Virus record (IMG/VR): IMGVR_UViG_3300043410_000219
Coordinates: 1-20,068 of that record
Length of the DNA stretch: 20,068 bases
Source: a virus
Direction: 5' to 3' (one strand)
Shown: positions 922 through 20,068 of the stretch, piece after piece
Layout: every line of letters begins with the position of its first letter
How positions within the stretch are numbered: position 1 is the first letter of the stretch
Position numbers and translations under genes: made by a program
Notes under the pieces: model-generated
The model's database searches: none
Seen by the model: only the letters and a program-made list of their open reading frames with translations
Told to the model about the DNA's origin: nothing

Positions 922-924
922 AGA

Positions 925-931
925 CTAAATA
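925..931 (+). promoter_or_regulatory. Late-promoter-like motif CTAAATA before gene 19
   Basis: CTAAATA lies between the stop of gene 18 and the start of gene 19. It resembles the T4 late -10 element TATAAATA and the related form described for aquatic T4-like phages. Nearly the same string (GACTAAATAAA) recurs at 7273-7283. The distance to the gene 19 ATG (953) leaves room for a short leader with the ribosome site AAGGAG. That it is recognised by gp55 is inferred. Confidence 0.6.
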
Positions 932-952
932 AAAGAGAACAAGGAGAATTAA

Positions 953-1546
953 ATGGCAAATATCGCTGATTTTAAAGCACAAATGATTGGGGGCGGAGCT
1001 CGCCCTAATCAGTTCCGTGTTGAATTGGTGTTCCCATCTTACGTACCACTTGGCGTCGTTGCTGGTCAACGTGCTCAGTTCCTATGTAAGGCTGCTCAGT
1101 TACCAGCGTCTACTATTGAAACAGTTCCTGTTTTATATCGTGGTCGTCCAGTAAACTTTGCTGGCGAACGTACTTTCGCACCATGGACTGTAACAATCTA
1201 TAACGATACTACGTTCAACATTCGCAATGCGATGGAACAGTGGCAAGGTGGCATTCAGAATTATTCTGGTACTGACGGACGTGTTAACCCACGTGACTAT
1301 CAGGTTGACTTGCAAGTTCATCAACTTGATCGTGCTGGCGCAATCATCAAGAGCTACAAGTTCGTTGATGCTTTCCCAACGCTAATTGGTCCAATCGCTT
1401 TAGATTTCGATCAACAGAATCAAATTGAACAATTTGATGTAGAGTTCAATTACAACTACTTCACTTCTCAGTCAACTGAGGGTGGTGGAATTAATCTTAA
1501 CGTTAGCGTTGATACTCCACTTGGTAGTTTCCCTCTACCAATTTAA
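953..1546 (+). CDS. 19: Tail tube protein gp19
   Basis: A 197-residue protein that would polymerise into the inner tail tube through which DNA passes. It shares with T4 gp19 the block ALP/QLPASTIETVPV (about residues 49-61), then VNFAGERTF..WTVTIYND, in the same order. T4 gp19 is 163 residues; the extra length here includes a C-terminal tail after the last predicted strand, rich in Gly, Asn, Ser and Pro. The ATG at 953 is preceded by AAGGAG at good spacing and by a late-promoter-like motif, so the start is well supported. It lies directly between sheath and portal genes, the usual order. Expected to be a late, highly expressed gene. Confidence 0.95.
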   Translation: MANIADFKAQMIGGGARPNQFRVELVFPSYVPLGVVAGQRAQFLCKAAQLPASTIETVPVLYRGRPVNFAGERTFAPWTVTIYNDTTFNIRNAMEQWQGGIQNYSGTDGRVNPRDYQVDLQVHQLDRAGAIIKSYKFVDAFPTLIGPIALDFDQQNQIEQFDVEFNYNYFTSQSTEGGGINLNVSVDTPLGSFPLPI

Positions 1547-1567
1547 TTTTAGGTTGAAAATTTAATT

Positions 1568-3148: not shown

Positions 3149-3149
3149 A

Positions 3150-3365
3150 ATGAGTGAACATACAATGAACTTAATTAATGCAATCGCAACAGGTAATGCG
3201 GTTGAAACAGAAACTGCATTTAACGCTGCAATTTCAGATAAAATTTCTACTAGATTAGATGCAATGAGAACTACTATTGCTCAAAATATGTTTAAAGAAA
3301 AACAAGTAGAAGAACCAACAATCGAAGTCGAAGAACCTGCTGAAATCTCACAATCAGAAGAATAA
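3150..3365 (+). CDS. 67: Prohead core protein gp67-like
   Basis: A 71-residue protein. The ATG at 3150 is preceded by AGGAGG, which overlaps the end of gene 20; the longer reading frame from 3069 lies inside gene 20 and is not the start. The sequence has the gp67 pattern: an N-terminal helix (LINAIATGNAVETETAF..A), a helix around TIAQNMF, then an acidic tail (about residues 50-71). T4 gp67 is 80 residues with an acidic C-terminus; it is an internal core protein needed for head shape and is degraded by gp21. Position between 20 and 68/21 agrees. It overlaps the next gene as TAATG. Assignment rests on order, length and pattern, since sequence conservation is low. Confidence 0.8.
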   Translation: MSEHTMNLINAIATGNAVETETAFNAAISDKISTRLDAMRTTIAQNMFKEKQVEEPTIEVEEPAEISQSEE

Positions 3366-3871
3366 TGATTAAAGAAAGTATTCGTTCATATGGAAACCTC
3401 ATTCAGTTAGATACTGATGGGGTTGTCTACATTAACAGAGAATCAACAAACTTCAGTTCTTTAGAGGAAGCAAGAACATATATTAAAAATAAAAAATATT
3501 CAGACACTTTAGAAATTCAGATAACTAAAGACATATACGAAGAAATTACCGATAATCGTATTGCTAATATAATTAGAGAACATCACGATATTAAAGTAAC
3601 AGATACACTAATCGAATCATATATCGAACTTGCTTCCTCGCAAATTTTTACAATCGATCCAGTTGTTCAAAAGATTCGCTCTTTGAATAAGCTCGATGAG
3701 TTAATTGAAGGTAAAATTCATTATCAATTATCGGATGGTTCTGTTATTGCAATAAATGAACAAACACAACAAGAACTAAATACATTATTAGCTAATCAAA
3801 AAGAAATAGTTGAGTATATGAGAGAAAATAAAAATAATTTTTTTCATGTGCTTAAGAAAATTAAGGAATAA
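3365..3871 (+). CDS. 68: Prohead core protein, gp68-like
   Basis: A 168-residue protein starting at an ATG that overlaps the previous stop (TAATG), so it is translationally coupled to gp67. T4 gp68 is about 141 residues and is an internal head-core protein degraded during maturation. The part I can read is mostly helical and charged, with a Lys-rich end (HVLKKIKE). I see no catalytic motif or membrane segment. The call rests mainly on its position between gene 67 and protease gene 21 and on its character, not on strong motifs. The alternative is an unrelated head protein specific to this phage group. Confidence 0.6.
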   Translation: MIKESIRSYGNLIQLDTDGVVYINRESTNFSSLEEARTYIKNKKYSDTLEIQITKDIYEEITDNRIANIIREHHDIKVTDTLIESYIELASSQIFTIDPVVQKIRSLNKLDELIEGKIHYQLSDGSVIAINEQTQQELNTLLANQKEIVEYMRENKNNFFHVLKKIKE

Positions 3872-3873
3872 AG

Positions 3874-4305
3874 ATGGCATTAACTAAAAGCATTTTAAAG
3901 ATGACAGAAACAGAAACTGTTGTTAAAGTTTCAGGAAATGGTGGAACATCTACTATCGATCTACAAACTGATTTGGTTGATGTGAATCAGACTACTTCTG
4001 GAGCAACACAAACAGTAACTATTACTGGTGTTCGTTGGAGTGGAGAAACATCTAATACAGTTTTAATCGATAGAAATTCAGTAAGAATTTTAACTCTGCC
4101 AACAGAGCAAGCAGATTATATTGCGTTTGATGGACAAGAATTACCACCAGAAAACACACAAGCTACTCAAGATATTACTGTCGCACAAACTGGATCTGGG
4201 TATATTGAGGTATATTTAAAGTTGCGTAAAGTTTCTGGTTACGCACCTAAAGTCGAAACTGCTGAATTCAGCGTATACGACGACACTGCCACAGTAGGAA
4301 GCTAA
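3874..4305 (+). CDS. Conserved small beta-rich protein of the head operon, function unknown
   Basis: A 143-residue protein with AAGGA upstream, two bases after gene 68. I do not assign a function. The sequence reads as alternating short beta strands with many Thr, Ser, Val and Gly (for example VSGNGGTSTIDL, TQTVTITGVRW, SGYIEVYLKLRKVSGY), and no signal peptide or transmembrane helix is visible. Such a composition suits a structural beta-sandwich, for example a small capsid decoration or head protein, but that is inference. Its place between the core genes and the prohead protease argues for late expression and a role in head assembly or the virion. Similar genes occur at this place in aquatic T4-like phages, as I recall. 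Confidence 0.7.
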   Translation: MALTKSILKMTETETVVKVSGNGGTSTIDLQTDLVDVNQTTSGATQTVTITGVRWSGETSNTVLIDRNSVRILTLPTEQADYIAFDGQELPPENTQATQDITVAQTGSGYIEVYLKLRKVSGYAPKVETAEFSVYDDTATVGS

Positions 4306-4309
4306 GACA

Positions 4310-4963
4310 ATGAAACTAATTAAAGAAGTTTTCGATACAACTAACGTTATTGTTGAAAGTAAATTAGGTAAAGGTAAAGAATACTTTATCGAAGGAATCT
4401 TTCTACAATCAGAACTTAAAAACCGCAATGGTCGTATGTATCCAGAAGCAGTTATGGATAACGAAGTTAAAAGATATTGCGAAAACTATGTAGCCAAAAA
4501 TCGTGCTTATGGCGAATTAGGTCATCCTGATACTCCTTCTATAAATTTAGATAGAGTATCACACCTAATCGTTGATCTACGTAAAGAAGGTACGAATTAT
4601 ATTGGTAAGGCAAAAATTCTTGAAACACCAATGGGTATGATTGCACGTGGTCTATTAGATGGCGGAGCAAACCTTGGTGTGTCAAGTAGAGCACTTGGTT
4701 CTCTTCAAATGAACAAAGAGGGTGTTCAAGTGGTTCAGGACGATTTTATGCTGTCAACTGCAGCAGATATCGTTGCTGATCCATCAGCTCCAGATGCTTT
4801 CGTAAGAGGTATTATGGAAAGCAAGGAGTGGGTATTTGTTGATGGAAAGTTTGTGGAGAAACATATTGATGAAGCTAGATCTATGATCAAGAAAGCATCA
4901 TCTAAGAATTTACAAGAAGCACAAATTCGTGCTTTCCAAACATTTCTGAGCAAAATCAGATAA
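4310..4963 (+). CDS. 21: Prohead core scaffold protease gp21
   Basis: A 217-residue serine protease (T4 gp21 about 212) that cleaves the capsid and scaffold proteins after prohead assembly. Visible family blocks are F.IEGIFLQSELKNRNGRMYP (residues 26-45), GELGHPDTPSINLDRVSHLI (68-87) with the probable catalytic His72, and GVSSRALG (123-130) with the nucleophile Ser at 125 or 126. This His/Ser arrangement is that of prohead proteases with the herpesvirus assemblin fold. In T4 the enzyme cuts after Glu in (Leu/Ile)-x-Glu. ATG with AGGAA upstream, four bases after the preceding stop. The gene ends inside the late-promoter-like repeat that precedes gene 22. Confidence 0.95.
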   Translation: MKLIKEVFDTTNVIVESKLGKGKEYFIEGIFLQSELKNRNGRMYPEAVMDNEVKRYCENYVAKNRAYGELGHPDTPSINLDRVSHLIVDLRKEGTNYIGKAKILETPMGMIARGLLDGGANLGVSSRALGSLQMNKEGVQVVQDDFMLSTAADIVADPSAPDAFVRGIMESKEWVFVDGKFVEKHIDEARSMIKKASSKNLQEAQIRAFQTFLSKIR

Positions 4964-4973
4964 ATAATAAATA
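4959..4973 (+). promoter_or_regulatory. Tandem late-promoter-like motifs before gene 22
   Basis: GATAAATA (4959-4966) and AATAAATA (4966-4973) overlap by one base, the first across the stop codon of gene 21. Both fit the T4-like late -10 pattern NATAAATA. They lie 30-40 bases before the gene 22 ATG. As I see no comparable motif directly before gene 23, these may drive both scaffold and capsid genes. Use by gp55 is inferred. Confidence 0.6.
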
Positions 4974-5006
4974 ATTACATAGAACTATTCCAGTTAGGAG
5001 AAAACG

Positions 5007-5909
5007 ATGTCAATCGAACAAAAAATCGCTGATCTGCTTGCCGAATCAAAAGCTGCTCAATTATCTGAGCAAGTTGCTGAAGAAGTAGCAGAAGAAGTTG
5101 TCGCTGAAGAAGTTGCTACTGAAGAAGTAGTAGCAGAAGAAGTTGTCGCTGAAGAAGTTGCTGAAGAAGTTGCTGCTGAACTTACTGTTGATGTAAGCGA
5201 AGATGTTGCTGCTTTAGTTAACGGCGAAGAACTTTCAGAAGAATTTAAAACTAAAGCTGCTACAATTTTTGAAGCTGCTGTAGTTAGCCGTGTTAAGCAA
5301 GAAGTTGCTCGCATGGAAGAAGAATTCGAAGCCAAGCTAGAAGAAGCTAAGGCGCAGAATATTGAGGGTCTTGTTGAACAAGTTGATGGATATCTTGGCT
5401 ATATTGCCGAGCAGTGGATTGCACAGAATGAATTAGCCCTTGAGCATGGTATGAAGTCCGAAATCCTTGAAGGATTTGTTGCTGGACTAAAAGGTCTTTT
5501 TGAAGAACACTATATCGAAGTTCCAGAAGAGAAGTTTGATGTATTAGGTTCATTAGAAAACCAAATCGAAGAACTTGAAACTAAGTTCAACGAACAAGTT
5601 GCTACTAACGTTGAGTTGACTAAAACACTTGACGAAATGAAGCGTGCTGAAATCGTTGCAACTGCATGTGAAGGTTTATCTGACACAGAAGTTGAAAGAT
5701 TCAAAGGTCTAGCTGAAGAATTAGTTTACGAATCTGCAGATATTTTCTCAGGAAAAGTTCAAACAATTCGTGAAAGCTACTTCACTACTAAAGCACAAGC
5801 AGATGTTACATCTGTCGTTACTGATGCTCCAGTAGAAACTCTAGTTGAAGAGAAGAAAATCGACCCAACTATGGCCAAGTATCTACAAGCACTTAACTCT
5901 CGCAAATAA
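5007..5909 (+). CDS. 22: Prohead core scaffold protein gp22
   Basis: A 300-residue, Glu- and Ala-rich, largely helical protein; T4 gp22 is about 269 residues and is the main internal scaffold, later cut to small peptides by gp21. The ATG at 5007 has TTAGGAG upstream. Residues 24-58 are a run of EEV/AEEVV-type repeats, probably a long acidic helix. The remainder has several coiled-coil-like heptad stretches (for example the segments near residues 105-120 and 185-212). The C-terminal MAKYLQAL is the type of end seen in gp22. It stands between the protease and the capsid gene, the invariant T4 order. Confidence 0.9.
   Translation: MSIEQKIADLLAESKAAQLSEQVAEEVAEEVVAEEVATEEVVAEEVVAEEVAEEVAAELTVDVSEDVAALVNGEELSEEFKTKAATIFEAAVVSRVKQEVARMEEEFEAKLEEAKAQNIEGLVEQVDGYLGYIAEQWIAQNELALEHGMKSEILEGFVAGLKGLFEEHYIEVPEEKFDVLGSLENQIEELETKFNEQVATNVELTKTLDEMKRAEIVATACEGLSDTEVERFKGLAEELVYESADIFSGKVQTIRESYFTTKAQADVTSVVTDAPVETLVEEKKIDPTMAKYLQALNSRK
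5076..5180 (+). repeat. In-frame degenerate tandem repeat in gene 22
   Basis: About 105 bases (35 codons) built of GAAGAAGTT/GAAGAAGTA units joined by GCT, GTC or ACT codons. Two 30-base copies at 5088-5117 and 5133-5162 are identical, giving a 45-base period. All changes keep the frame. It encodes an acidic Glu-Val-Ala helix. Confidence 0.9.
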
Positions 5910-5930
5910 TTTTTAACAAAAGGAAATAAA

Positions 5931-7208
5931 ATGACTACTCGTCAAGACTTACTAAAAAAGTGGGCACCGATTCTAGAATCGAACAACGCTCCAGAAATCA
6001 AAGATAACTATCGTAAAGAAGTTACTGCTGTTCTTTTGGAAAACCAAGAACGCGAAATGGCTAAGCAACAAGAAGCTCTATTCGAAGTTGCTGTTAACAA
6101 TGGTGGTACTGGTGTTGCTTTAGGTGGCGCAGGTACTAACGCTAATATGGCTGGTTACGATCCTGTGCTTATCGCATTGGTACGTCGTGCTGCTCCTCAA
6201 TTAATCGCTTATGACATCGCTGGTGTTCAGCCAATGTCTCAGCCAACTGGTTTGATCTTCGCAATGAAGAGCAAATATTCAGCTCAAAACGGATCTGAAG
6301 CATTGTTCAACGAAGCTGATACAGACTTCGGTGGCGCAGCTTCTCCTGCTCACGCTGGTTCAAACCCAGTTGATGGTACTTACACTACTGGTACTGGTAT
6401 GACTACTGCTACTGCAGAAAACCTTGGTGCTAGCGATGGTGAAACTTTCAATCAAATGGCTTTCTCTATCGAGAAAACTACTGTAACTGCACAAACTCGT
6501 GCTTTGAAAGCAGAATACACTATCGAATTAGCTCAAGATCTTAAAGCAGTTCATGGTCTTGACGCTGAAGGCGAATTGAGCAACATCCTTTCAACAGAAA
6601 TCACTGCTGAAATTAACCGTGAAGTTGTTCGTACTGTTTATAAAGCAGCTAAAGCTGGTGCTGAAATTGGTACTGCTGTTGCTGGTACTTTCGACTTAGA
6701 CGTTGACGCTAATGGTCGTTGGTCTGTTGAGAAGTTCAAAGGTCTATTGTTCCAAATCGAACGTGAAGCAAACGCTATCGCTCAGACTACTCGTCGTGGT
6801 CGTGGTAACTTCATCATCTGTTCTTCAGATGTTGCTTCTGCTCTAGCTATGGCTGGTGTTCTTGACTATGCTCCAGCATTGTCAACTGGTTTGAACGTAG
6901 ATGAAGCTTCTACTACTTTCGCTGGTGTATTGAATGGTAAGTATAAAGTTTATGTTGATCCATATTCTGCTAACCAATCAGCTAGCCAGTTCTTCGTAGT
7001 TGGTTACAAAGGTACTTCTGCTTTTGACGCAGGTCTTTTCTACTGCCCATACGTACCTCTACAAAAGGTACAAGCAATCGATCCAGCTACATTCCAGCCT
7101 AAGATCGGTTTCAAGACTCGCTACGGTATGGTTGCTAACCCATTCACTAGCTTGTCTTCAGGTACTAACATCTACTACCGTAAGGTTAAAGTAACTAACT
7201 TGATGTAA
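5931..7208 (+). CDS. 23: Major capsid protein gp23 (compact form)
   Basis: A 425-residue HK97-fold major capsid protein. Clear gp23 blocks: YDPVLIALVRRAAPQLIAYD followed by GVQPM..PTGLIFA (about residues 75-110), LKAEYTIELAQDLKAVHG, INREVV, GNFIICSSDVASALA, and FQPKIGFKTRYGM near the C-terminus. T4 gp23 is 521 residues; the missing length lies mostly where T4 has its insertion domain. The N-terminus RQDLLKKWAPILE matches the cleaved propeptide of T4; a (Leu/Ile)-x-Glu site ends at Glu52 (LFE before VAVNN), a likely gp21 cleavage point. ATG with AAGGAAA upstream. The strong terminator at 7244 follows 36 bases after the stop. Codons are regular, as expected of the most abundant protein. Confidence 0.97.
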   Translation: MTTRQDLLKKWAPILESNNAPEIKDNYRKEVTAVLLENQEREMAKQQEALFEVAVNNGGTGVALGGAGTNANMAGYDPVLIALVRRAAPQLIAYDIAGVQPMSQPTGLIFAMKSKYSAQNGSEALFNEADTDFGGAASPAHAGSNPVDGTYTTGTGMTTATAENLGASDGETFNQMAFSIEKTTVTAQTRALKAEYTIELAQDLKAVHGLDAEGELSNILSTEITAEINREVVRTVYKAAKAGAEIGTAVAGTFDLDVDANGRWSVEKFKGLLFQIEREANAIAQTTRRGRGNFIICSSDVASALAMAGVLDYAPALSTGLNVDEASTTFAGVLNGKYKVYVDPYSANQSASQFFVVGYKGTSAFDAGLFYCPYVPLQKVQAIDPATFQPKIGFKTRYGMVANPFTSLSSGTNIYYRKVKVTNLM

Positions 7209-7243
7209 TCAAGTAAGAAACCTACGTAAGATAGGTAATTTAG

Positions 7244-7268
7244 AGGGGATCTTCGGATCCCCTTTTTT
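7244..7268 (+). terminator. Intrinsic terminator after gene 23
   Basis: A perfect stem AGGGGATC / GATCCCCT with the stable tetraloop TTCG, and a T run at 7263-7268 partly in the stem foot. It would end or attenuate the head-gene transcript after the capsid gene. This is the strongest hairpin in the window. Confidence 0.93.
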
Positions 7269-7274
7269 ATTCGA

Positions 7275-7281
7275 CTAAATA
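7275..7281 (+). promoter_or_regulatory. Late-promoter-like motif CTAAATA before the 7287 gene
   Basis: CTAAATA in the context GACTAAATAAA, the same as before gene 19. It lies just after the gene 23 terminator and only 5 bases before the ATG at 7287. A start site at the usual distance would fall on or beside that ATG. Confidence 0.6.
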
Positions 7282-7286
7282 AATGT

Positions 7287-7820
7287 ATGAACAATATTAT
7301 CTCTTGCCCAGTACCAGAAAACATCTCCCCATTATCACCAAATGGGTTTATGTTCTCCATTCAAAAATTGCCAGAAGTTAATTTCTTCTGCCAACAAGCC
7401 AATGTTCCAGGAATAACTATTGGAACACCAGAATTTGGAAACCCATTTAATACATCTCCAATTCCAGGCGACACTCTTACATACGACACTTTAAATGTTC
7501 AATTTTTGGTTGATGAAAATATGGCGAATTTCAAATCAATTCATAACTGGATTGTTGCTTTAGGATTCCCAGAAAATTATTCACAATATATCAATTTTCT
7601 AAATCAGCAGGAACTAACTACAACATCAGAACTTGCAAAGAACTACTCTGATGCTACACTTACAATACTTGGTGCAACTAATAAACCAGTTCAGTCTATA
7701 TTGTTTCATGATTTATTTCCAATGAGTATTGACTCATTAGTTTTCCAATCTACAAACCAAGACGTGCAGTACCTGATTGGGAATGCAACATTTAGATACG
7801 CATATTACAAGTTTATTTGA
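7287..7820 (+). CDS. Probable tail completion / tube-fold virion protein (gp3-like candidate)
   Basis: A 177-residue protein. Its layout parallels the tail-tube fold seen in gp19 of this window: F.FSIQKLPEVNFFCQQANVPGITIG at the start, then a glycine-proline hairpin (PIPGDTLTYDTLNVQFLVDENM) and IHNWIVALGFPE. Similar proteins with the LPG, PGD and DENM landmarks are common in T4-like phages, and T4 gp3, the tail completion and sheath-stabiliser protein, is 176 residues; I cannot settle gp3 versus another tube-fold baseplate protein by eye. No ribosome site is visible before the ATG, which lies 5 bases after a late-promoter-like motif. The stop codon overlaps the -35 box of the uvsY promoter. 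Confidence 0.55.
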   Translation: MNNIISCPVPENISPLSPNGFMFSIQKLPEVNFFCQQANVPGITIGTPEFGNPFNTSPIPGDTLTYDTLNVQFLVDENMANFKSIHNWIVALGFPENYSQYINFLNQQELTTTSELAKNYSDATLTILGATNKPVQSILFHDLFPMSIDSLVFQSTNQDVQYLIGNATFRYAYYKFI

Positions 7821-9791: not shown

Positions 9792-10303
9792 ACGGAGATG
9801 AACATTTTGTTATCGTGAAACTCGTTACTGGTGAACAAGTGATGGCTATACTAGAGTATGAGTCAGACAATGCAGTTGAATTGGTATATCCAATGTTGAT
9901 ACGCTTATTCCCAACTTTTGTTGACGGAAAGGCACATGAGCATGTTACTGCAACACCATATTCCCAATTTGCTGAAAACGCACACATATCTATTGAGAAA
10001 AGAAACATCATCTTTCTCAAAAACTTGCATCATATGTTGATTCCACACTTCGAGCGATTAGTTGCTGAAAACGAAAAGACAGTATTGGTGAACAAAAACC
10101 TAGATGGGGAAGTTAAGCGAGCAGAAGATTTAACTTGGGAAGAAGAGGAGTATCTCAATCAAGTTAGAGAAGAAGCTCAATCAATGTCGACAGAAGAACT
10201 TCAAAAGAGAATTTCTATGCTTGAATCAATCTTTGGTAAATCAGAGCAAGAGGAAGTTATAGAAGAGAAGAACTTTGTTGAAGGTAATGATACATTACAT
10301 TAA
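9785..10303 (+). CDS. Sm-barrel-like conserved protein, function unknown
   Basis: A 172-residue protein overlapping uvsW by 7 bases. No ATG is available near the start; TTG at 9785 has GGAG at 9773-9776 with 8 bases between, so it is the best start (a second TTG follows at 9788). The N-terminal 85 residues suggest a small Sm-like barrel: FVIVKLVTGEQVMAILE..., then ELVYPMLIRLFP, then SIEKRNIIFLKNL. The C-terminal half is acidic and helical (EEEEYLNQVREEAQ, LQKRISMLESIF). Similar proteins stand next to uvsW or gene 55 in aquatic T4-like phages, as I recall, with no proven function. RNA binding would fit an Sm fold but is inference. Confidence 0.75.
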   Translation: MLNGDEHFVIVKLVTGEQVMAILEYESDNAVELVYPMLIRLFPTFVDGKAHEHVTATPYSQFAENAHISIEKRNIIFLKNLHHMLIPHFERLVAENEKTVLVNKNLDGEVKRAEDLTWEEEEYLNQVREEAQSMSTEELQKRISMLESIFGKSEQEEVIEEKNFVEGNDTLH

Positions 10304-10327
10304 TTACTTAACATCAAACCTAACACC

Positions 10328-10433
10328 GTAAGTTTACCTCGTTGTCAAATAAATGTAAAATTTATTTTTCTTGTAATTAATACAATAATTTAAACTTGAC
10401 AAATTTATTAAATTGGAGTAAACTTACTCTAAT
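10328..10433 (+). promoter_or_regulatory. Dyad elements around the gene 55 promoter
   Basis: GTAAGTTTAC (10328-10337) and its exact reverse complement GTAAACTTAC (10418-10427) lie 80 bases apart. The second copy sits in a local palindrome, GAGTAA (10416-10421) AC TTACTC (10424-10429), extended by ATT/AAT arms across one mismatch, and covers the -10 box. This arrangement could be an operator pair. The rest of the 153-base gap shows only the promoter. Confidence 0.45.
10396..10424 (+). promoter_or_regulatory. Sigma-70-like early/middle promoter for gene 55
   Basis: TTGACA (10396-10401), 17-base spacer, TAAACT (10419-10424). The -35 is perfect and the -10 matches four of six. It lies 33 bases before the GTG of gene 55, with AAGG in between. 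Weaker -10 than the other promoters in the window. Confidence 0.65.
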
Positions 10434-10456
10434 GAAATAACAAAAAGGTTTTTACT

Positions 10457-11008
10457 GTGGCTCAATATGTGAACAACGCTGACTTCTTGGCAGCTATCAA
10501 AGAATACAAAAAAGAATTAAATCACGCTAAAGATAATGGATTACCCAAACCCCAAATTCCAAATTATCTTGGAGAGTGCATTTTAAAGATAGCAACACAT
10601 CTATCTTACAAACCAAACTTCATTAATTACACATATAAAGATGATATGATTCTTGATGGTATCGAGAACTGTATTAACTACTTTGATAACTTTGATCCAG
10701 ATAAATCCAGCAACCCTTTTGCATATTTCACACAAATCATTTACTACGCATTTCTGCGTAGAATTCAAAAAGAAAAGAAACATTCGTATATTAAAAATAA
10801 GTTAATTCAAGACATGCCATTTGATTCTTTTGATATACAACAACATGATGAAGATGGACACTATCATAATGCTTATCTAGATTTTATGCAAAATAATAGT
10901 AACTTTGATGCTTCTAGTTTCATAGTTAAGAAAAAAGAAAAAGTTAAAAAGAATAATCCGACTCTTGATGATTTTATAGGTGAAGAGAGTGACGACAGCG
11001 ATAAATGA
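10457..11008 (+). CDS. 55: Late-transcription sigma factor gp55
   Basis: A 183-residue protein (T4 gp55 185), the small sigma-like subunit that makes host RNA polymerase recognise late promoters. The GTG at 10457 follows AAGG with 8 bases between; no in-frame ATG is near, and the start MAQYVNNADFLAAIKEYKKEL aligns with T4 YVNNKELLQAI..WKTEL. Conserved blocks: MILDGIENCINYFDNFDP (cf. T4 MIADGIEASIKGLHNFDE), NPFAYFTQIIYYAFLRRIQKEKK, matching sigma region 2 with its promoter-binding basic helix. The C-terminal NPTLDDFIGEES parallels T4 SPSLDFLYEAND, which binds the sliding clamp. The next gene overlaps the 3' end. Confidence 0.95.
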   Translation: MAQYVNNADFLAAIKEYKKELNHAKDNGLPKPQIPNYLGECILKIATHLSYKPNFINYTYKDDMILDGIENCINYFDNFDPDKSSNPFAYFTQIIYYAFLRRIQKEKKHSYIKNKLIQDMPFDSFDIQQHDEDGHYHNAYLDFMQNNSNFDASSFIVKKKEKVKKNNPTLDDFIGEESDDSDK

Positions 11009-12179
11009 TTTTATAAGAGCAATATCTGCTAGTAAATATCCAGCAATAAGAAGTTTTCAACAACGTCTTGCGAGACCCTCTCGTGCTAGGAAGTCTACTA
11101 GATCTTTAAAACGATGGACATGGGATCACCCTGCAGAAAACCCATGTCATAAAATGATGGAAGAAAGTGAAATGAGTGATAAGATTTTTTTAGGTGTATC
11201 TGATTTTGATGATTTAATTACATCAAAGATTTTACAGAATAGAGTTACCGCTGGTAAACAAACCTTGCATAGAGAGACCACTGTTTTAGCTAATCGCCAA
11301 ACATGGTCTGTTTATGCAGAACAGCAATTTAAAGATAACTTGTTCGTACAAGGTTCTTCATCTTCTGGATTTATTATCAATGAAGACACAGATAATTATA
11401 TAACATATACAGTAAATTCAAACTCAACGACAATTCGTGCTTTCGGTGATGCTGATTTTGTTGATGGCGTCATGGGTTTGGTTCAAGATAAATTTGATGT
11501 TGTAACTTCATATGTTGAGTGGATTTATTCTGGCGATGGTAACTCAGTGAATGTTCCATTGAATAGAGATAGACTTCCAGTTGAAGAGATGTACCCATTC
11601 CTCAATGGAGAATCGTTGGCATCATATTATGATCGCTATATGGAATCACCAGCTAACATTCTTTTGTTAATTGGTCCTCCAGGAACAGGTAAAACTACGT
11701 TCATTCGTGGTTTGTTGGCTCATCGAGACGCATCGGCAATGGTGACATATGACGCTGGCATTTTAGAGAAAGATGGATTCTTTGCTCGCTTTATTGAAGA
11801 TGATACGAGTGTTATGGTTCTTGAAGATTCTGATGCGTTTTTAAAATCACGTAGCGATGGTAATACAATGATGCATCGTTTCTTAAATGTTGGCGATGGT
11901 CTTGTTACAACCAAAGGTAAGAAAATGATTTTTTCAACAAACTTACCATCTATCCGTGATATTGATTCAGCGTTGGTTCGCCCAGGACGTTGCTTCGACA
12001 TCGTTACGTTTGACACATTGACTCTCCCACAAGCAAAAACTTTGGCAGATAAACTTGGTGTCGAACTTCCAGTTAAACCACGTGGTAAAGAAACTGAAAA
12101 GTATTCAATTGCTGAGGTGTTCCATGTTCAGCAAAATCAACCATCGGCGACTACTAATAGAAAGGTAGGTTTCATTTGA
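10989..12179 (+). CDS. AAA+ ATPase, unknown role (between 55 and 47)
   Basis: An ATPase with a single AAA+ domain in the C-terminal half: Walker A GPPGTGKTT (residues 229-237), Walker B VMVLEDSD (Glu279), a sensor STNLPS, and RPGRCFD, the usual place of arginine-finger residues. Overall it resembles BCS1/FtsH-like AAA proteins. Start choice is uncertain. The frame is open from 10980; GTG at 10989 has AGG eight bases before and gives 396 residues with a basic N-terminal region. ATG at 11172 has GGAAG upstream and gives 335. I favour 10989 because the extension has no stop over 60 codons and otherwise leaves an uncoded gap. It overlaps gene 55 by 20 bases. Homologues of this ATPase occur in aquatic T4-like phages; its substrate is unknown. 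Confidence 0.8.
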   Translation: MTTAINDFIRAISASKYPAIRSFQQRLARPSRARKSTRSLKRWTWDHPAENPCHKMMEESEMSDKIFLGVSDFDDLITSKILQNRVTAGKQTLHRETTVLANRQTWSVYAEQQFKDNLFVQGSSSSGFIINEDTDNYITYTVNSNSTTIRAFGDADFVDGVMGLVQDKFDVVTSYVEWIYSGDGNSVNVPLNRDRLPVEEMYPFLNGESLASYYDRYMESPANILLLIGPPGTGKTTFIRGLLAHRDASAMVTYDAGILEKDGFFARFIEDDTSVMVLEDSDAFLKSRSDGNTMMHRFLNVGDGLVTTKGKKMIFSTNLPSIRDIDSALVRPGRCFDIVTFDTLTLPQAKTLADKLGVELPVKPRGKETEKYSIAEVFHVQQNQPSATTNRKVGFI

Positions 12180-12331: not shown

Positions 12332-13364
12332 TCAACACTTTGGTGCTCGTAACGATAGTATTGCGTTTCTAGATTTTTATCAATCTTTTTACGATAACAT
12401 ATTTTTTACAACATTAGAACAACATAAAATTTCTGATGTATTAATTCTTGGTGATACGTTTGATAGAAGAAAATATGTAAACTTCTACTCGCTTCAACGA
12501 GCAAAAGATATGTTCTTCAACAAACTTGAAGAACGTGGCATTCAGGTGCATATGTTAGCTGGGAATCACGACACATATTATAAAAACACAAACGAAGTTA
12601 ATTCACCAGATTTGCTGTTACAAGAATACGGTAACATTGATGTTATCGATTACCCAAAAACAATTAAGATTGCTGATACTGAAATCTGCATGATGCCTTG
12701 GATTTGTCCAGAGAATTATGTTGAAAGTATTGAACATATTAAAACCACAACAGCAGAAATTTGTATGGGACATTTCGAGATCGCTGGGTTTGCGATGTAT
12801 CGTGGAATGGAATCTCATGAGGGTTTGGGTAAAGATCTATTTGATAAATTTGATATGGTGTTTAGTGGACATTATCATCATCGTTCAGATGATGGTCACA
12901 TTTATTATCTTGGTAATCCATACGAATTAACTTGGCAAGATTTTAATGACCCACGTGGGTTCCATTTGTTCGATTTAACTACAAGAAAACTTGAGTTCAT
13001 CGAAAACACTTATACGATGTTCTCAAGGATCGAGTATGACGATAAGGATAAAGACCCTATTGATTTAGATTTATGTGATTTAGAAAAGAAGATTGTTAAA
13101 CTAGTAGTTGTTAACAAAACTGATTTTTATAAATTTGACAAATTTATTCAAAAGTTGTATAATAAAGGGTGTCATGAAATTAAGATTGTCGAAAATATGT
13201 CCGAGTTCGAAGAGGGCGAAATTGGAGACGAGATTAATTTAGAAGATACAGTTAGTGTTCTTTCTCATTACATCGATTCAGTTGAGACTGATGTTGATAA
13301 AGAACAAGTTAAAACATTTATGAAGTCCCTTTATACAGAAGCGATTAACGTAGAGATAGTTTGA
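12309..13364 (+). CDS. 47: Recombination nuclease subunit gp47 (SbcD/Mre11-like)
   Basis: A 351-residue calcineurin-like phosphoesterase (T4 gp47 339) that forms with gp46 the nuclease that resects DNA ends for recombination-dependent replication. Metal-binding motifs are complete: DQHFG (Asp8, His10), GDTFDRR (Asp49), GNHD (85-88), GHFE (His155) and GHYHH (187-191). Start is TTG at 12309 with GGAGG at 12298-12302; the protein start MKVAIITDQHFG matches the T4 start MKILNLGDWHLG, and no ATG lies near. The stop overlaps the next ATG (TGATG). Confidence 0.95.
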   Translation: MKVAIITDQHFGARNDSIAFLDFYQSFYDNIFFTTLEQHKISDVLILGDTFDRRKYVNFYSLQRAKDMFFNKLEERGIQVHMLAGNHDTYYKNTNEVNSPDLLLQEYGNIDVIDYPKTIKIADTEICMMPWICPENYVESIEHIKTTTAEICMGHFEIAGFAMYRGMESHEGLGKDLFDKFDMVFSGHYHHRSDDGHIYYLGNPYELTWQDFNDPRGFHLFDLTTRKLEFIENTYTMFSRIEYDDKDKDPIDLDLCDLEKKIVKLVVVNKTDFYKFDKFIQKLYNKGCHEIKIVENMSEFEEGEIGDEINLEDTVSVLSHYIDSVETDVDKEQVKTFMKSLYTEAINVEIV

Positions 13365-13675
13365 TGCAGCAACTTTGTATAGAGTATTTTTATCCACTCA
13401 CTGAGCAGATTCCTCTTGACTTAGACTTTACACCTTCAATAAAGTTTGTCGAAGAAAGACGTGTGCAGTATAATAATTCAGTTATCAGTGGTAGTTATCT
13501 GGTGTCAGGTGGTACTAGTGCAGTAACGTGGGCAACTGTCAACCCCTCAGACATTGAACCTTCATTCACTATTGATGTTGACCAGACACCTATTACAATT
13601 ACTTCGAAAGTTAAACCAAATTTCTTTAGAAGATACATCTATAAGATTCTTGGTATGAAATGGAAAGCTAAATGA
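13364..13675 (+). CDS. Small unknown protein between genes 47 and 46
   Basis: A 103-residue protein; I start at the ATG at 13364, which overlaps the gene 47 stop, instead of the TTG three bases before. I see no known motif. It reads as beta-rich (SGSYLVSGGTSAVTWATV, FTIDVDQTPITITSKV) with a strongly basic C-terminal helix, NFFRRYIYKILGMKWKAK, which could contact nucleic acid or membrane. In T4 small genes (46.1, 46.2) also lie between 47 and 46, but I cannot claim homology. The stop overlaps the gene 46 ATG by four bases (ATGA), so all three are probably co-translated. Confidence 0.75.
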   Translation: MQQLCIEYFYPLTEQIPLDLDFTPSIKFVEERRVQYNNSVISGSYLVSGGTSAVTWATVNPSDIEPSFTIDVDQTPITITSKVKPNFFRRYIYKILGMKWKAK

Positions 13676-15645: not shown

Positions 15646-15814
15646 TGATTTTGAGCTAGCTCAATTGGCTGGTGAATATGGGTTCGAAGATTCTTTAATG
15701 TTCACCCAAAATATGACTTTGGCCAATCGAACAGAGATTGAAACCCTTTTGACTGCCTATGAATTTGATAATGCCTTTATGGTTGACAATAATTCAGAAG
15801 TAGAGTATAATTGA
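15629..15814 (+). CDS. Small acidic protein (61 aa), unknown
   Basis: Starts at the ATG at 15629, preceded by GGAAAGTGGA; the upstream TTG at 15608 is less likely. The 61-residue product begins MWNDFNDFELAQLAGEYGFE and contains LANRTEIETLLTAYEFDNAF. It is mainly helical and strongly acidic, with no catalytic motif. Small proteins of this style are frequent in aquatic T4-like phages, as I recall. The last codons (VDNN...EYN) are also the -35 and -10 boxes of the promoter for the next gene. Function unknown; an inhibitor or adaptor protein is possible but unsupported. Confidence 0.75.
   Translation: MWNDFNDFELAQLAGEYGFEDSLMFTQNMTLANRTEIETLLTAYEFDNAFMVDNNSEVEYN
15783..15811 (+). promoter_or_regulatory. 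Consensus sigma-70 promoter inside coding sequence, for the vWA gene
   Basis: TTGACA (15783-15788), 17-base spacer, TATAAT (15806-15811), perfect consensus. It lies in the last codons of the 61-aa gene. Its first 14 bases TTGACAATAATTCA equal those of the promoter at 18556. Expected start near 15818, before the AGGA site of the next gene. Confidence 0.88.
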
Positions 15815-15837: not shown

Positions 15838-18048
15838 ATGACATCTAAAATTAACTCTGTAGATCTTTCAGCAAAACTTCTTGCAACCGAGAACATTAGT
15901 GTTCGTCGTGCTCGTGCAAAGACAGCTTCTTTTGATATCAACTCCCGTGTTCTTACCATCCCTATGTGGAAAGATATGTCTCCCACTGTAGAGGGTATGC
16001 TCATTGGCCACGAAGTTGGACATGCACTTTACACAACTGATGCGTTTATGGAACCAGCCAAAGAAAACTCACGTATCTTTGGTTATTTGAATGTTCTTGA
16101 AGATGTTCGAATTGAAAAACTTATGAAACGTAAGTATCCTGGTATCCGTAAAACGATGAACGAGGGATACAAAGAATTAAACGATCAAGACTTCTTCGGT
16201 GTTAAAAAACAAAATCCAGAAACTCTACTGCTAATCGATCGTATCAATCTGTACTTCAAAGCTGGCTTCAACTGTGGTGTGAAGTTTACACCTGAAGAAA
16301 AGCAATTCGTTCTGCGTGCAGAAAAAACTGAAACTGTTGATGATGTTATTTCTTTGGCTAAAGAAGTGTTTGAGCATTCAAAGCAAGAACTCGAACAGCG
16401 TATTCGCGAACAGATGGAACAAGAGCCAGAAGTATCAGACGAATTTGATGAGCAAGATCTAGATGATATGGACGAGATCGATGAAGATTTCGACATGCTT
16501 TCTATTGATGACTCTGGTATGACTGAAACTGACCAGTCAAAAGAAGAGAGTGGGTTTGCTGGTAATGAGCAGACTGGTGCTTCTATCGAAAAAGATAAAC
16601 GCACAAAAGAAGAACAGTTGCAGGATCTTGTTGACGAGAACATTGAATCGAAGACTGATAAAGTTTTTTATTCTAAATTAGAAGAACTTGCTGATGAGAG
16701 TACCGATTATCTTTATTATAATCTAGATATGGATTATCCATACAATCCAGTTGTGTCATACAAAACTGTGTTGAAAGAAACTGCGTGCACTGATGAGTAT
16801 GTTGTTGAAGATGACTGTAAAGAACGATTTGAAAAGTTTAAAACTGAATCTGCTCGTGTTGTTAACTATCTCACAAAAGAGTTTGAGATGAAGAAGTCTG
16901 CTCAACTCTACAAAAGATCGCAAACATCTAAGGTTGGTTCTTTGGATATGCGTAAAATTTGGGCATACAAACTCAATGACGATTTGTTTAAGCGTGTGAC
17001 TACATTGCCACAGGGTAAAAATCATGGTATGATTTTCTTGCTTGATTGGTCTGGTTCTATGGATAGTGTTTTGCCAGACACAGTTAAACAGGTTATCACT
17101 TTGGCTATGTTCTGCCAGCGTAACCAAATCCCTTATCGTGTGTTTGCGTTTAGTTCTAACTACAGTCTTACGACAATTCCTAATAATGTTGATTTGAATG
17201 AACAAGAAGTTGCTGATGTATATAATCGTTGTATAAAGTTGCGTGACAAACGCAGAGATATGAAACAAAACGATCTTACTAATGCATGTAATGAATTTGC
17301 TTTGCTTGAGTTTCTTTCTAGTAAGATGACAACTGTAGAATTTAATACTATGATTCGTCGCCTGCATGAGACTTACAAGTTTAAGTGGAGTAAAAACAAC
17401 GAATATCAGACTGGCGGAACTCCTCTAAATGAAGCATTGGCTTATATGGTTAAGTATATTCCAGAATTTGTTTCTGGGTCTGGTATCGAGAAGATGACAC
17501 TCATCACATTGACTGATGGTGAAGGGCATGGTCTTCATAGTAGTGGTCGCTATTCTTTGGACGAGTATCGCATTGATACTAGCGATGGTCAATATAAGAA
17601 AGTTAAACAAAAACATTTTCTACAGGACGAGGTTACCAAAAAGTCTTATCTCATTAATCGATATGGTCCTTTCCAAACTGAAGCAATCATTCGTATGATT
17701 AAAGATCGATTTGATATTGCGGTACTTGGTTTTTATGTGTGTCAAAATAGTCGTAGAGACCTTAGTTCTGCCATCAAATGTAATCTTCCAGGATCTGATG
17801 CTAACAATTACAATGTAATCGAAGTTATGCGTAAGGATTTCCGTGACCAAGGATTCTTTTCTATGAAGAACACTGGTCGTGACGATTTGTTTATTATTCC
17901 TTCATCTTCTATGAAGATTGACGACTCTGAAATTGCTGTTACTGAAAAACAAACAGCCAAGCAAATTGCTCGTCAGTTCTCAAAGGTTATGTCTGGTAAA
18001 AAGACTTCCCGAGTTCTTTTGAACAAATTTATTGGATATGTTGCATGA
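15838..18048 (+). CDS. HExxH metallopeptidase-like plus vWA-domain protein (CobT-like architecture)
   Basis: A 736-residue protein. I use ATG 15838 with AGGA nine bases upstream; TTG at 15811 lies inside the promoter. N-terminal part: IGHEVGHAL with HExxH at His58-Glu59-His62, and NVLEDVRIEKL (about 85-95), where Glu88 could be the third zinc ligand, as in minigluzincin peptidases. Middle: Glu/Gln-rich helix then a very acidic stretch (about 195-245). C-terminal part: a vWA domain with complete MIDAS: DWSGS (403-407), GGTP with Thr528, and TDG with Asp560. Acidic linker plus vWA resembles CobT, the partner of CobS ATPase; a CobS-like gene lies two genes downstream. Related genes in cyanophages are labelled peptidase. 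Whether it cleaves protein is unknown; no signal peptide. Confidence 0.85.
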   Translation: MTSKINSVDLSAKLLATENISVRRARAKTASFDINSRVLTIPMWKDMSPTVEGMLIGHEVGHALYTTDAFMEPAKENSRIFGYLNVLEDVRIEKLMKRKYPGIRKTMNEGYKELNDQDFFGVKKQNPETLLLIDRINLYFKAGFNCGVKFTPEEKQFVLRAEKTETVDDVISLAKEVFEHSKQELEQRIREQMEQEPEVSDEFDEQDLDDMDEIDEDFDMLSIDDSGMTETDQSKEESGFAGNEQTGASIEKDKRTKEEQLQDLVDENIESKTDKVFYSKLEELADESTDYLYYNLDMDYPYNPVVSYKTVLKETACTDEYVVEDDCKERFEKFKTESARVVNYLTKEFEMKKSAQLYKRSQTSKVGSLDMRKIWAYKLNDDLFKRVTTLPQGKNHGMIFLLDWSGSMDSVLPDTVKQVITLAMFCQRNQIPYRVFAFSSNYSLTTIPNNVDLNEQEVADVYNRCIKLRDKRRDMKQNDLTNACNEFALLEFLSSKMTTVEFNTMIRRLHETYKFKWSKNNEYQTGGTPLNEALAYMVKYIPEFVSGSGIEKMTLITLTDGEGHGLHSSGRYSLDEYRIDTSDGQYKKVKQKHFLQDEVTKKSYLINRYGPFQTEAIIRMIKDRFDIAVLGFYVCQNSRRDLSSAIKCNLPGSDANNYNVIEVMRKDFRDQGFFSMKNTGRDDLFIIPSSSMKIDDSEIAVTEKQTAKQIARQFSKVMSGKKTSRVLLNKFIGYVA

Positions 18049-18494
18049 TGACAGTTTGCGATTTCATTAAACAAAGGACACAATTCCATGCGAAGATGAC
18101 TTATGATGACACAGAAGTCCGCTTCGTTATGGAACAATGTCGAGATACAACTACTGGAGTTTATTTCATTGTTGATGAACAAAATGGTATGTTCGACATT
18201 CTAAAGGTTGGGAAGGCAGAAGGTAAACGAGGGTTGTCTCAACGATTAAATGGTTACAGAACTACTGGTCGAACTAGACTTCCTGTTGATAGAACTGCCC
18301 AATTATGGCACAATGTTATGACCAATCAACATAGAGGGTCAACTCTCTCTGTTTACATTTACCCATTGGCTATGACTGAAGTTCTTATTGAGGGTTATAC
18401 AGTTAGGTCGTCCATGGTTCGTTCTTTTGAGGAAACGCTCTCTAAACAGGCTCGTTTAGAGGGAAATTCAATGCTTTTATCTGGATTCGACTGA
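18045..18494 (+). CDS. GIY-YIG-like small protein, function unknown
   Basis: A 149-residue protein overlapping the vWA gene stop (ATGA at 18045-18048). The pattern resembles a GIY-YIG nuclease core: GVYFIV (38-43) for the first motif, ILKVGKA (52-58) for the second with Lys instead of Tyr, Arg67 in LSQRLNGYR, Glu129/130 in SFEETL, and Asn141 near the end. Because the second motif is changed, the protein may be a diverged or inactive nuclease, or only share the fold. Tight coupling to the vWA gene suggests a shared task. Homing activity is not indicated: there is no DNA-binding repeat and it does not interrupt another gene. Confidence 0.65.
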   Translation: MMTVCDFIKQRTQFHAKMTYDDTEVRFVMEQCRDTTTGVYFIVDEQNGMFDILKVGKAEGKRGLSQRLNGYRTTGRTRLPVDRTAQLWHNVMTNQHRGSTLSVYIYPLAMTEVLIEGYTVRSSMVRSFEETLSKQARLEGNSMLLSGFD

Positions 18495-18502
18495 AAAACG
18501 AG

Positions 18503-18518
18503 TAAAATCAACGACTTA
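18503..18518 (+). repeat. Intergenic 16-base motif, copy 2
   Basis: TAAAATCAACGACTTA, one base different from 15428-15443. It lies just after the stop of the GIY-YIG-like gene and before the hairpin. Confidence 0.5.
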
Positions 18519-18521
18519 CAA

Positions 18522-18545
18522 AACCCTACACTCTGCAGGGTTATT
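18522..18545 (+). terminator. Terminator-like hairpin (recurrent element, copy 2)
   Basis: AACCCTACA / TGCAGGGTT with loop CTC: nine-base arms with one A-C mismatch, followed by ATT. Only a short T run follows, so termination is probably partial. Same primary sequence as the copies at 15396 and 19767. Confidence 0.65.
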
Positions 18546-18555
18546 AATGAAGTCC

Positions 18556-18584
18556 TTGACAATAATTCAATAATGGGGTATAAT
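18556..18584 (+). promoter_or_regulatory. Consensus sigma-70 promoter for the CobS-like gene
   Basis: TTGACA (18556-18561), 17-base spacer, TATAAT (18579-18584), perfect consensus. A leader of about 45 bases follows to the ATG at 18635, with GGAG at 18625-18628. Confidence 0.92.
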
Positions 18585-18634
18585 TATATTATTGAAACTT
18601 GATTGATGTTGTTATTTTTATTATGGAGAAGTAT

Positions 18635-19768
18635 ATGATTGATACTGTGTTTTTGACTGAGTTGCAGAAGCAATTCCCTGACACCAAAGAAAGTGGTGTT
18701 GTTACTCGTGCTGAGATTGCTTCTACTATGGAAGTTCTTGGTACCAAAAAGTGGCCAGAATGGTTGATGGAAAATCGTGTCGGTCGTGGTCTTTATGCCA
18801 TCTCAGGTAGTAAACCTGCTGTCGTTGGAAATCTTGCCGTGAAACCAGAGGAATCTTTTAAAGTGGATTATTCTAATGTTGAGTCGCTAATCCCCAAGAA
18901 GGATTCAAACTTCGTACCATTTGGTAACTACTCAGAACTCGAGCAGATTATCAAGTCTGGTATTTTCTATCCGTCTTATATCTCTGGTCCGACTGGTAAC
19001 GGTAAATCTACCATGGTGGAACAGATCTGCGCAAAACACAAGCGTCCTTTGATTCGTGTTAACTTGAACCTTATGACTGACGAAGAGCAGTTGATTGGTT
19101 CTAAAACTTTGAACGATGGTAATGTGGAAGTTGTTGAAGGTCCAGTTCTCATCGCAATGCGTAACGGCACAACTCTCTTGCTCGATGAGATTGATGCTGG
19201 TGGTGCAAACACTCTACTTTGCTTGCAACCGATTCTCGAGGGTAAACCTTATTACTTCAAACTCAAGAATGAGATGATCATTCCTGCGCAGGGATTCAAT
19301 ATTATCGCAACTGCCAATACCAAAGGTAAAGGTAGCGATGATGGTCGTTACATCGGTACTAACGTATTGAACGAAGCGTTCTTGGAGCGATTCGCTGTTA
19401 CGTTCGAACAAGAATACCCTAACGCTAAAGTTGAAGTTAAGATTATCAAGAATCTCATGGAAACTTATGGTTGTCTTGATGTTGAATTTGCCGAGACTTT
19501 GGTCAAATGGGCAGAAGCAATTCGTCGCACCTTTGACGATGGTGGTGTTGATGAAACTATCACAACTCGTCGTATGACCCATATCGTTCGTGCCTTTGCA
19601 ATCTTTAAAGATCGCAAGAAAGCTGTTGAGCTCTGTTGCAATCGTTTTGATTCTGCAACAAAATTGGCTTTCCAAGACTTGTATGATAAGGTAGCCAACC
19701 CAGAGCCAGAGGTGCTTCCTCAGGTAGAAACCCCTGTCCAGACCCCTACAGAAGAGGTGCCGTTTTAA
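18635..19768 (+). CDS. CobS/MoxR-like AAA+ ATPase
   Basis: A 377-residue protein. I start at ATG 18635, with GGAG six bases before; the TTG at 18599 and ATG 18623 lie in the leader. Residues 1-56 are a small domain ending in PEWLMENRVGRGLYAI. The AAA+ domain follows: Walker A GPTGNGKST (118-126), Walker B LLLDEID (181-187), sensor 1 ATAN (225-228), and ERF (251-253) with the likely arginine finger. This is the CobS/MoxR type, which remodels partners that carry vWA domains. Cyanophage relatives are annotated cobS. No CobN or other cobalamin gene is present in this window, and the nearby vWA protein is the natural partner; a chaperone or remodelling role fits better than cofactor synthesis. The C-terminus is Pro/Glu-rich. 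Confidence 0.9.
   Translation: MIDTVFLTELQKQFPDTKESGVVTRAEIASTMEVLGTKKWPEWLMENRVGRGLYAISGSKPAVVGNLAVKPEESFKVDYSNVESLIPKKDSNFVPFGNYSELEQIIKSGIFYPSYISGPTGNGKSTMVEQICAKHKRPLIRVNLNLMTDEEQLIGSKTLNDGNVEVVEGPVLIAMRNGTTLLLDEIDAGGANTLLCLQPILEGKPYYFKLKNEMIIPAQGFNIIATANTKGKGSDDGRYIGTNVLNEAFLERFAVTFEQEYPNAKVEVKIIKNLMETYGCLDVEFAETLVKWAEAIRRTFDDGGVDETITTRRMTHIVRAFAIFKDRKKAVELCCNRFDSATKLAFQDLYDKVANPEPEVLPQVETPVQTPTEEVPF
18771..18789 (+). repeat. 19-base direct repeat encoding NRVGRG, copy 1
   Basis: AAAATCGTGTCGGTCGTGG, identical to 20050-20068, in the same protein context (ENRVGRG / KNRVGRG). It marks the shared N-terminal domain of two successive genes. Confidence 0.9.
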
Positions 19769-19790
19769 CCCTACACCCTGTAGAGTTATT
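19766..19790 (+). terminator. Terminator-like hairpin (recurrent element, copy 3)
   Basis: TAACCCTACA / TGTAGAGTTA with loop CCC, one C-A mismatch in a ten-base stem, starting in the stop codon of the CobS-like gene. Then TT. Related to the elements at 15394 and 18522. Confidence 0.65.
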
Positions 19791-19801
19791 GTAAAAAATA
19801 C

Positions 19802-19830
19802 TTGACAAATATGGTTAAGTCGGGTATAAT
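19802..19830 (+). promoter_or_regulatory. Consensus sigma-70 promoter for the 19863 gene
   Basis: TTGACA (19802-19807), 17-base spacer, TATAAT (19825-19830), perfect consensus. The leader TATTGTTAACTTGAT is close to TATTGAAACTTGAT downstream of the promoter at 18556. Confidence 0.92.
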
Positions 19831-19862
19831 TATTATTGTTAACTTGATGAAGGAAATATATT

Positions 19863-20068
19863 ATGTTGAAATTTGCAGATCTTACTAAATCACAAAAAAC
19901 TTTTATTGTTCGTACTCTTGAACTTTTCCCTGAATATCGTTCAGAAAAAACTCTTGGTGCTAAACAAATTCACGCATCTTATTTTAAGATGAAAGATGAC
20001 CGCAGTTCTACTGGTGAAAAGTTGGGTTATCCTAACTGGTTGCAGAATAAAAATCGTGTCGGTCGTGG
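19863..20068 (+). CDS. Gene with a CobS-like N-terminal domain (partial, runs off the window)
   Basis: A frame from ATG 19863, with AAGGAAA eight bases upstream, open to the end of the window (68 codons and two bases). The visible part is a small helical domain: TLELFPEYRSEKTLGAKQI, then KLGYPNWL and KNRVGRG. Its end matches the N-terminal domain of the CobS-like protein just upstream (FP...T...I, PEWLMENRVGRG). The rest is not visible, so the gene could be a second ATPase, a small stand-alone domain, or a protein with another C-terminal part. The W-L...RVGRG motif resembles the last strand of a winged-helix fold, but this is only a guess. It has its own consensus promoter. Confidence 0.85.
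   Translation, partial: MLKFADLTKSQKTFIVRTLELFPEYRSEKTLGAKQIHASYFKMKDDRSSTGEKLGYPNWLQNKNRVGR
20050..20068 (+). repeat. 19-base direct repeat encoding NRVGRG, copy 2
   Basis: Identical to 18771-18789; it reaches the last base of the window, so the identity may go further. Confidence 0.9.

Follow-up and report, generated by a model that had tools for sequence, protein, structure and literature searches.

A phage gene pair labeled cobT and cobS as a candidate ATP-driven zinc peptidase or remodeling machine

Introduction

MoxR-type AAA+ ATPases paired with a protein that carries a von Willebrand factor A (vWA) domain are found in several described systems. NorQ and NorD of Paracoccus and Jhaorihella serve in nitric oxide reductase maturation; the Paracoccus NorD loses co-purification with NorQ when its C-terminal residues 637-638 are deleted, and the finger of NorD is required for function (PMC13036017). 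CobS and CobT, which require CobN, are another such pair. MoxR-vWA pairs assemble the tail of an archaeal virus (as cited in PMC7824862), and the group 2.2 jumbo phages have a MoxR protein together with a vWA domain fused to an N-terminal metallopeptidase, for which a role in virion assembly was proposed (PMC7824862). The architecture of MoxR plus metallopeptidase-vWA is itself already published. Here, we describe such a pair in a 20 kb viral fragment from a marine T4-like phage, IMG/VR record IMGVR_UViG_3300043410_000219, positions 1 to 20,068, which we call the window. At the DNA level, it is matched best by cyanophages, over gp23 only and with about 75% identity. The gene for the peptidase-vWA protein (15838..18048) is called cobT, and the gene for the AAA+ protein (18623..19768) is called cobS; the pair, its promoters, and the features between the two genes are all on the + strand.

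One earlier paper treats the 'peptidase' label as a misannotation, contradicting the report of a metallopeptidase-vWA protein with MoxR in jumbo phages. It has also been proposed that the phage CobS-CobT pair takes over the host CobN and raises cobalamin (PMC8651126, PMC2984593). We suggest, with a probability of about 0.6, that the two genes encode one ATP-driven zinc peptidase or remodeler, which is expressed early and is not a cobaltochelatase.

Results and Discussion

The cobT product has 736 amino acids and matches the phrog_459 profile ('peptidase'; CobT/NorD-like) over its full length (residues 12-736 of 736, E = 5e-186). Across the 93 sequences of the main alignment, which come from viral and contig relatives, H58, E59, H62, E88, D89, and R91 are invariant (93/93). 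A second alignment, of 49 sequences with bacterial proteins added, was used for the N-terminal residue set, which, including H58, E59, and H62, is still invariant (49/49). Judged from these alignments, the conservation of HExxH and ED.R is not due to chance. The HEVGH motif, residues 58-62 (16009..16023), contains the predicted zinc ligands H58 and H62 and the predicted catalytic E59. EDVRIE, residues 88-93 (16099..16116), is on the following helix, residues 78-99 in the model, with E88 as the predicted third zinc ligand. An HExxH with a Glu third ligand on the following helix is the signature of gluzincins and minigluzincins. Both HExxH and ED.R are also found in distant viral proteins labeled CobT or hypothetical, from Vibrio phage ICP2, halovirus HCTV-5, Microcystis phage Mae-Yong1326-1, Rhizobium phage RHph_N1_10, Salmonella phage SSU5, and Escherichia phage PhiR41_1. 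In Gordonia phage Woes, HEIGH is present and the ED.R helix is not clear.

The full-length model has a mean predicted local distance difference test (pLDDT) score of 83.8, with an unstructured stretch at residues 200-251 (pLDDT < 50) within the acidic linker, residues about 196-256 (16423..16605), which is predicted to be disordered. The N-terminal domain, residues 1-195 (15838..16422), was modeled separately because VIA, run on the complete protein, listed nothing that bore on it; the separate model has a pLDDT of 91.4. The structure lists for this domain, from both Foldseek and VIA, are topped by HExxH enzymes: jannalysin, abylysin, selecase, ArdC, BepA, BlaR1, and IrrE/PprI. It is this run of zincins in the comparisons of the model, rather than any one weak match, that is the evidence for the fold. 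Sequence searches of the PDB with the 736-residue protein and with the family profile gave no real match, and the DUF2201_N metallopeptidase family (PF13203) was not found in the protein. On the model, the N-terminal domain looks like a gluzincin with a seemingly complete zinc-protease active site. Thus, our analysis leads us to favor the peptidase reading of this domain over the misannotation view.

The cobS product (381 amino acids; an alternative start at 18635 is possible) matches phrog_249 ('cobS') with E = 5e-105 and Pfam AAA_5 with E = 4e-17 (63 bits, cut-off 22). Walker A, GPTGNGKS, begins at 18986, Walker B, LLLDE, at 19175, and LERF at 19382; an AAA_5 domain, Walker A and B, sensor 1, and an Arg finger, as expected for a MoxR AAA+ protein, are all present. 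The CbbQ/NorQ C-terminal domain (PF08406) scores 20.5 against a cut-off of 20.6 in the window, and 22.2 in MED4-213. In searches of cultured phages, the two genes occur in equal numbers of records, 365 Synechococcus, 61 Cyanophage, and 24 Prochlorococcus records each. Furthermore, 108 cobT-bearing loci also have cobS, nearly always adjoining cobT where the locus has room, and cobS is present in all 20 of the longer records. An AAA+ gene shares the locus in the bacterial relatives L135-L138 and L140, and in L136 and L137 it is the direct neighbor. Since phrog_249 as a family matches all 14 control genomes, weak matches to it were disregarded. The 'cobS' genes of Staphylococcus and Listeria phages were excluded from the comparison because they are followed by DUF7192 proteins, not by CobT.

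A preliminary description of this DNA had noted an HExxH, an acidic linker, and a complete vWA metal ion-dependent adhesion site (MIDAS) in the protein encoded at 15838, and a CobS/MoxR-like AAA+ ATPase; these are all confirmed. The proposal that the ATPase and the peptidase-vWA protein work as a pair also gains support, from co-occurrence, adjacency, the invariant zincin-like HExxH..E, and a vWA domain resembling those coupled to MoxR proteins. D403, S405, S407, and D560 are invariant (93/93), and residue 528 is Thr in 91 of the 93. The MIDAS is thus complete, with DxSxS at residues 403-407 (17044..17058), T528 at 17419-17421, and D560 at 17515-17517. Pfam gave vWA matches below threshold only. 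The vWA half of the model is closest to NorD in cryo-electron microscopy structures of NorQD complexes (Z = 16.0, root-mean-square deviation 5.0, 260 residues aligned), followed by the MIDAS domain of Mdn1/Rea1, and both rank above generic vWA domains. These comparisons of the model support placing the vWA part nearest to MoxR-coupled vWA domains. A strand-helix-strand unit, at residues about 362-389, precedes the MIDAS strand in the model, and by its position we infer that this region, residues about 355-392 (16900..17013), is the counterpart of the NorD finger. The protein ends in Val-Ala (18040..18045), and VA or IA is the C-terminus in 76 of the 93 relatives; the tails of cellular CobT differ. 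By analogy with NorD, the C-terminal [VI]A is predicted to be an AAA+ docking tail, and the finger is predicted to lie in the AAA+ pore.

NorQ-NorD shares with the phage pair the vWA fold, the C-terminal VA, the predicted finger, an N-terminal domain with a disordered linker, and a MoxR partner. A search with the N-domain profile also picked up bacterial proteins about 750-790 residues long, with a vWA part that is matched by NorD structures (E = 1e-30 to 1e-46). These NorD-type proteins (loci L218-L233) have H-M-A-A-H or similar; both His residues and ED.R.E are kept, and the catalytic Glu is replaced, in contrast to the phage proteins. From their sequences, such N-domains look like zincins that have lost catalysis and may retain metal binding. 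As NorQD is the closest structural parallel, and two phage members, nickie and BUCTxx99, have no HExxH, the phage pair could instead be a chaperone for metal insertion of the NorQD/CbbQO type, in which the N-domain binds a metal or a target without cleavage and the motor serves to mature a metalloenzyme of the phage or of its host. This is unlikely, as E59 is invariant in the 93 viral members and metal handling alone would not demand it.

When is the pair expressed? A perfect sigma-70 promoter, TTGACA-17-TATAAT, is located 27 bp 5' of cobT (15783..15811) and is kept in five relatives (L002, L003, L005, L006, and L007), and another precedes cobS (18556..18584). The window contains five such perfect sites, compared with none in 100 shuffles; two of them are directly 5' of cobT and cobS, and none is in the 7.8 kb head-gene stretch. 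Across the loci, a perfect site is found within 150 bp of 13 of 120 cobT genes and 12 of 93 cobS genes, where about 0.006 per gene would be expected. The T4 late promoter, TATAAATA, was not found anywhere in the window; its absence is uninformative for cobT and cobS, because the head genes (window 1-7820) are also without it. The late promoter of this phage group may differ from TATAAATA. A literature search found no link between cobS and transcript timing. Early expression of both genes, as the preliminary description had supposed, is what we infer from the perfect promoters that precede them.

The window has a T4-like order of head genes, uvsW, gp55, gp47, gp46, and then the cobT-cobS locus. 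In T4-like phages, the pair has gp47/gp46 and genes for the clamp or clamp loader as neighbors; in ICP2, it has genes for primase, helicase, and polymerase; and in the group of SSU5, Rhizobium phage, nickie, and BUCTxx99, it has genes for ligase, primase, and the alpha chain of DNA polymerase III. This gene context suggests a role with replication. The group 2.2 jumbo phages, compared by their description, have the same MoxR plus metallopeptidase-vWA arrangement and differ in that virion assembly is proposed there, while location and promoters suggest an early role here. (Salicola phage SCTP-2 was considered as the source of the jumbo-phage example, and its numbering does not fit.) A virion assembly machine, in which the MoxR-vWA chaperone and its peptidase process structural proteins, would agree with that proposal, with the archaeal virus tail, and with the head genes in the window. 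We consider it rather unlikely, given the separate early-type promoters of both genes, the lack of any in the head-gene stretch, and the recurring replication and recombination neighbors.

The minigluzincins abylysin, jannalysin, and selecase, together with Wss1, are likewise small zincins with HExxH and a Glu-helix, and the minigluzincin-like protease Wss1 works with the AAA+ protein Cdc48 (PMC4559962). The parallel is one of analogy only: the resemblance is structural and weak, Cdc48 is not a MoxR protein, and Wss1 has no vWA domain. A doubtful but specific version of the proposal is that the pair is a viral functional counterpart of Wss1-Cdc48, a zinc protease, driven by its AAA+ partner, that would remove proteins from the phage DNA in replication and recombination, with the CobT, NorD, and CbbO-type partners as relatives whose protease site has decayed to a scaffold.

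The alternative that the pair is a viral cobaltochelatase, hijacking host CobN to raise cobalamin, for example for ribonucleotide reductase, draws on homology to both CobS and CobT, and some hosts do possess CobN. The cobS product matches the CobS family TIGR01650 (E = 2e-22), a distant homology, with 79.7 bits, far under the cut-off of 558.55. The peptidase-vWA protein has no match to the CobT family TIGR01651 at E = 0.001, with a positive Caulobacter control. CobN (PF02514) was found in none of 25 related records; this phage itself is known from a 20 kb fragment. In the proteins of SSU5 and PhiR41_1, the part with HExxH matches the Pfam CobT N-domain (E = 2e-37 and 9e-27). The link to CobT (PF06213 and PF11775) rests on such viral intermediates; when the profile of the phage family was compared directly with that of Rhodobacterales CobT, the match was colinear but weak (P = 0.006-0.02, probability under 10%). 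When 60 cellular CobT sequences from Pseudomonadota were aligned with SSU5 and PhiR41_1, none had HExxH, the Glu equivalent to E88 was kept in 56, and the Arg in 57. CobS-CobT is also a MoxR AAA+ with a vWA protein whose N-domain retains the E..R.E helix, and it differs in lacking HExxH, in its C-terminus, and in its requirement for CobN. The simplest reading of these sequences is that catalysis may have been lost in the cellular proteins. With the zincin site retained in viruses and gone in 60/60 CobT, and the pairs located in replication modules, a cobaltochelatase is improbable, and the vitamin B12 reading is weakened. The earlier suspicion that the cobS label misleads is supported by the CobS score and the missing CobN.

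Is the open reading frame (ORF) between the two genes part of the machine? The ORF at 18045..18494 encodes 149 residues and overlaps the cobT stop by ATGA, as had been described. It lies within an insertion of about 480 bp (about 18046-18523) ahead of a terminator-like hairpin, CCCTACACTCTGCAGGG, 3' of cobT (18524..18540). In the 91% identical L002 and the 78% identical L003, the cobT stop is followed by the counterpart hairpin, promoter, and cobS, with nothing else between. The ORF had been called GIY-YIG-like; it does not match GIY-YIG (PF01541) even at E = 10, no other Pfam family matches convincingly, and no relatives were found in phages, viral contigs, or other cobT loci. Its best PDB match, ribosomal S4, was judged spurious. 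The ATGA overlap is a property of the slot, not of the ORF: of 125 other loci with room, 23 carry a different, unrelated gene that overlaps the cobT stop likewise, including genes for DNA-binding proteins of phrog_624 and for a 2OG-Fe(II) oxygenase. Of the three genes whose co-occurrence had been anticipated, cobT and cobS do occur together, and the third is in this window only. By sequence comparison, the ORF is not part of the machine, and a three-gene system with a GIY-YIG-like protein, suggested by the overlap and by a GVYFI...LKVGKA...R...E pattern seen by eye, is highly improbable given the absence of the ORF from every other locus and from the same spot in the closest relatives, the lack of a hidden Markov model match, and the unrelated genes in the slot.

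In many cyanophage-like loci, the gene for a conserved phrog_624 protein of about 175 residues lies between cobT and cobS and shares 4 nt with the cobT stop; L012 (10040-10579) is one example, and L018, L067, L103, L113, and L121 are similar. The pair of T4-like cyanophages, phrog_459 and phrog_249 (T4-GC 146 and 150 of S-PM2), has the same order and domain layout as that of the window, which differs by its extra ORF and by an identity of about 32-35% to the cultured-phage members. After cobS, a further gene begins at 19863 and is truncated where the contig ends (19863-20066); a perfect sigma-70 promoter of its own is at 19802, and L002 has a counterpart (10156-10581). The product contains a domain that hhalign relates to the N-terminal domain of CobS (probability 96%, E = 2e-9), and near relatives keep the gene. 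Between gp55 and gp47, window 10980-12179 contains an AAA+ ATPase ORF (phrog_14322, no assigned function), which is kept in L002 and L031 and is not at that place in S-PM2. A small ORF without a family match lies between gp47 and gp46 (13361-13675), where S-PM2 and S-CAM4 also have a small ORF.

Conclusions

The proposed mechanism builds on observed sequence features, conservation, gene pairing, and promoters, and on two modeled folds; the complex, the zinc, the proteolysis, and the substrate are postulated. The CobS-like protein would form a MoxR-type AAA+ ring. The partner would rest on this ring through its vWA domain, whose finger would enter the pore, and its C-terminal [VI]-A tail would dock to the ring, in the manner of NorD on NorQ. 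Cycles of ATP would twist the vWA domain, with the substrate bound through the MIDAS metal. The twisting would pull the acidic linker that tethers the N-terminal gluzincin-type peptidase (ligands H58, H62, and E88; catalyst E59), which may then cut the presented protein or activate itself or the target. The pair would be expressed early, alongside replication and recombination genes.

Several points weigh against this proposal. The single structure matches of the N-domain are weak (Foldseek E of 0.14 or worse; VIA Z of 5-7), and one 52 kb fragment, G052, gives a weak cobS match only. Phages nickie and BUCTxx99 keep the pair without HExxH, so peptidase activity is not indispensable everywhere. 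A literature search turned up no biochemistry for any member of the family.

Essentially every sequenced T4-like cyanophage carries the cobT-cobS pair, and these phages are among the most abundant marine viruses; the 'vitamin B12 gene' label that is widely applied to the pair is probably wrong. Our proposal reconciles the contradictory published annotations of the pair, and its function can now be addressed at E59, the last two residues, and the finger. These results suggest that the CobT and NorD metal-insertion partners share an ancestor with an AAA+-linked protease.

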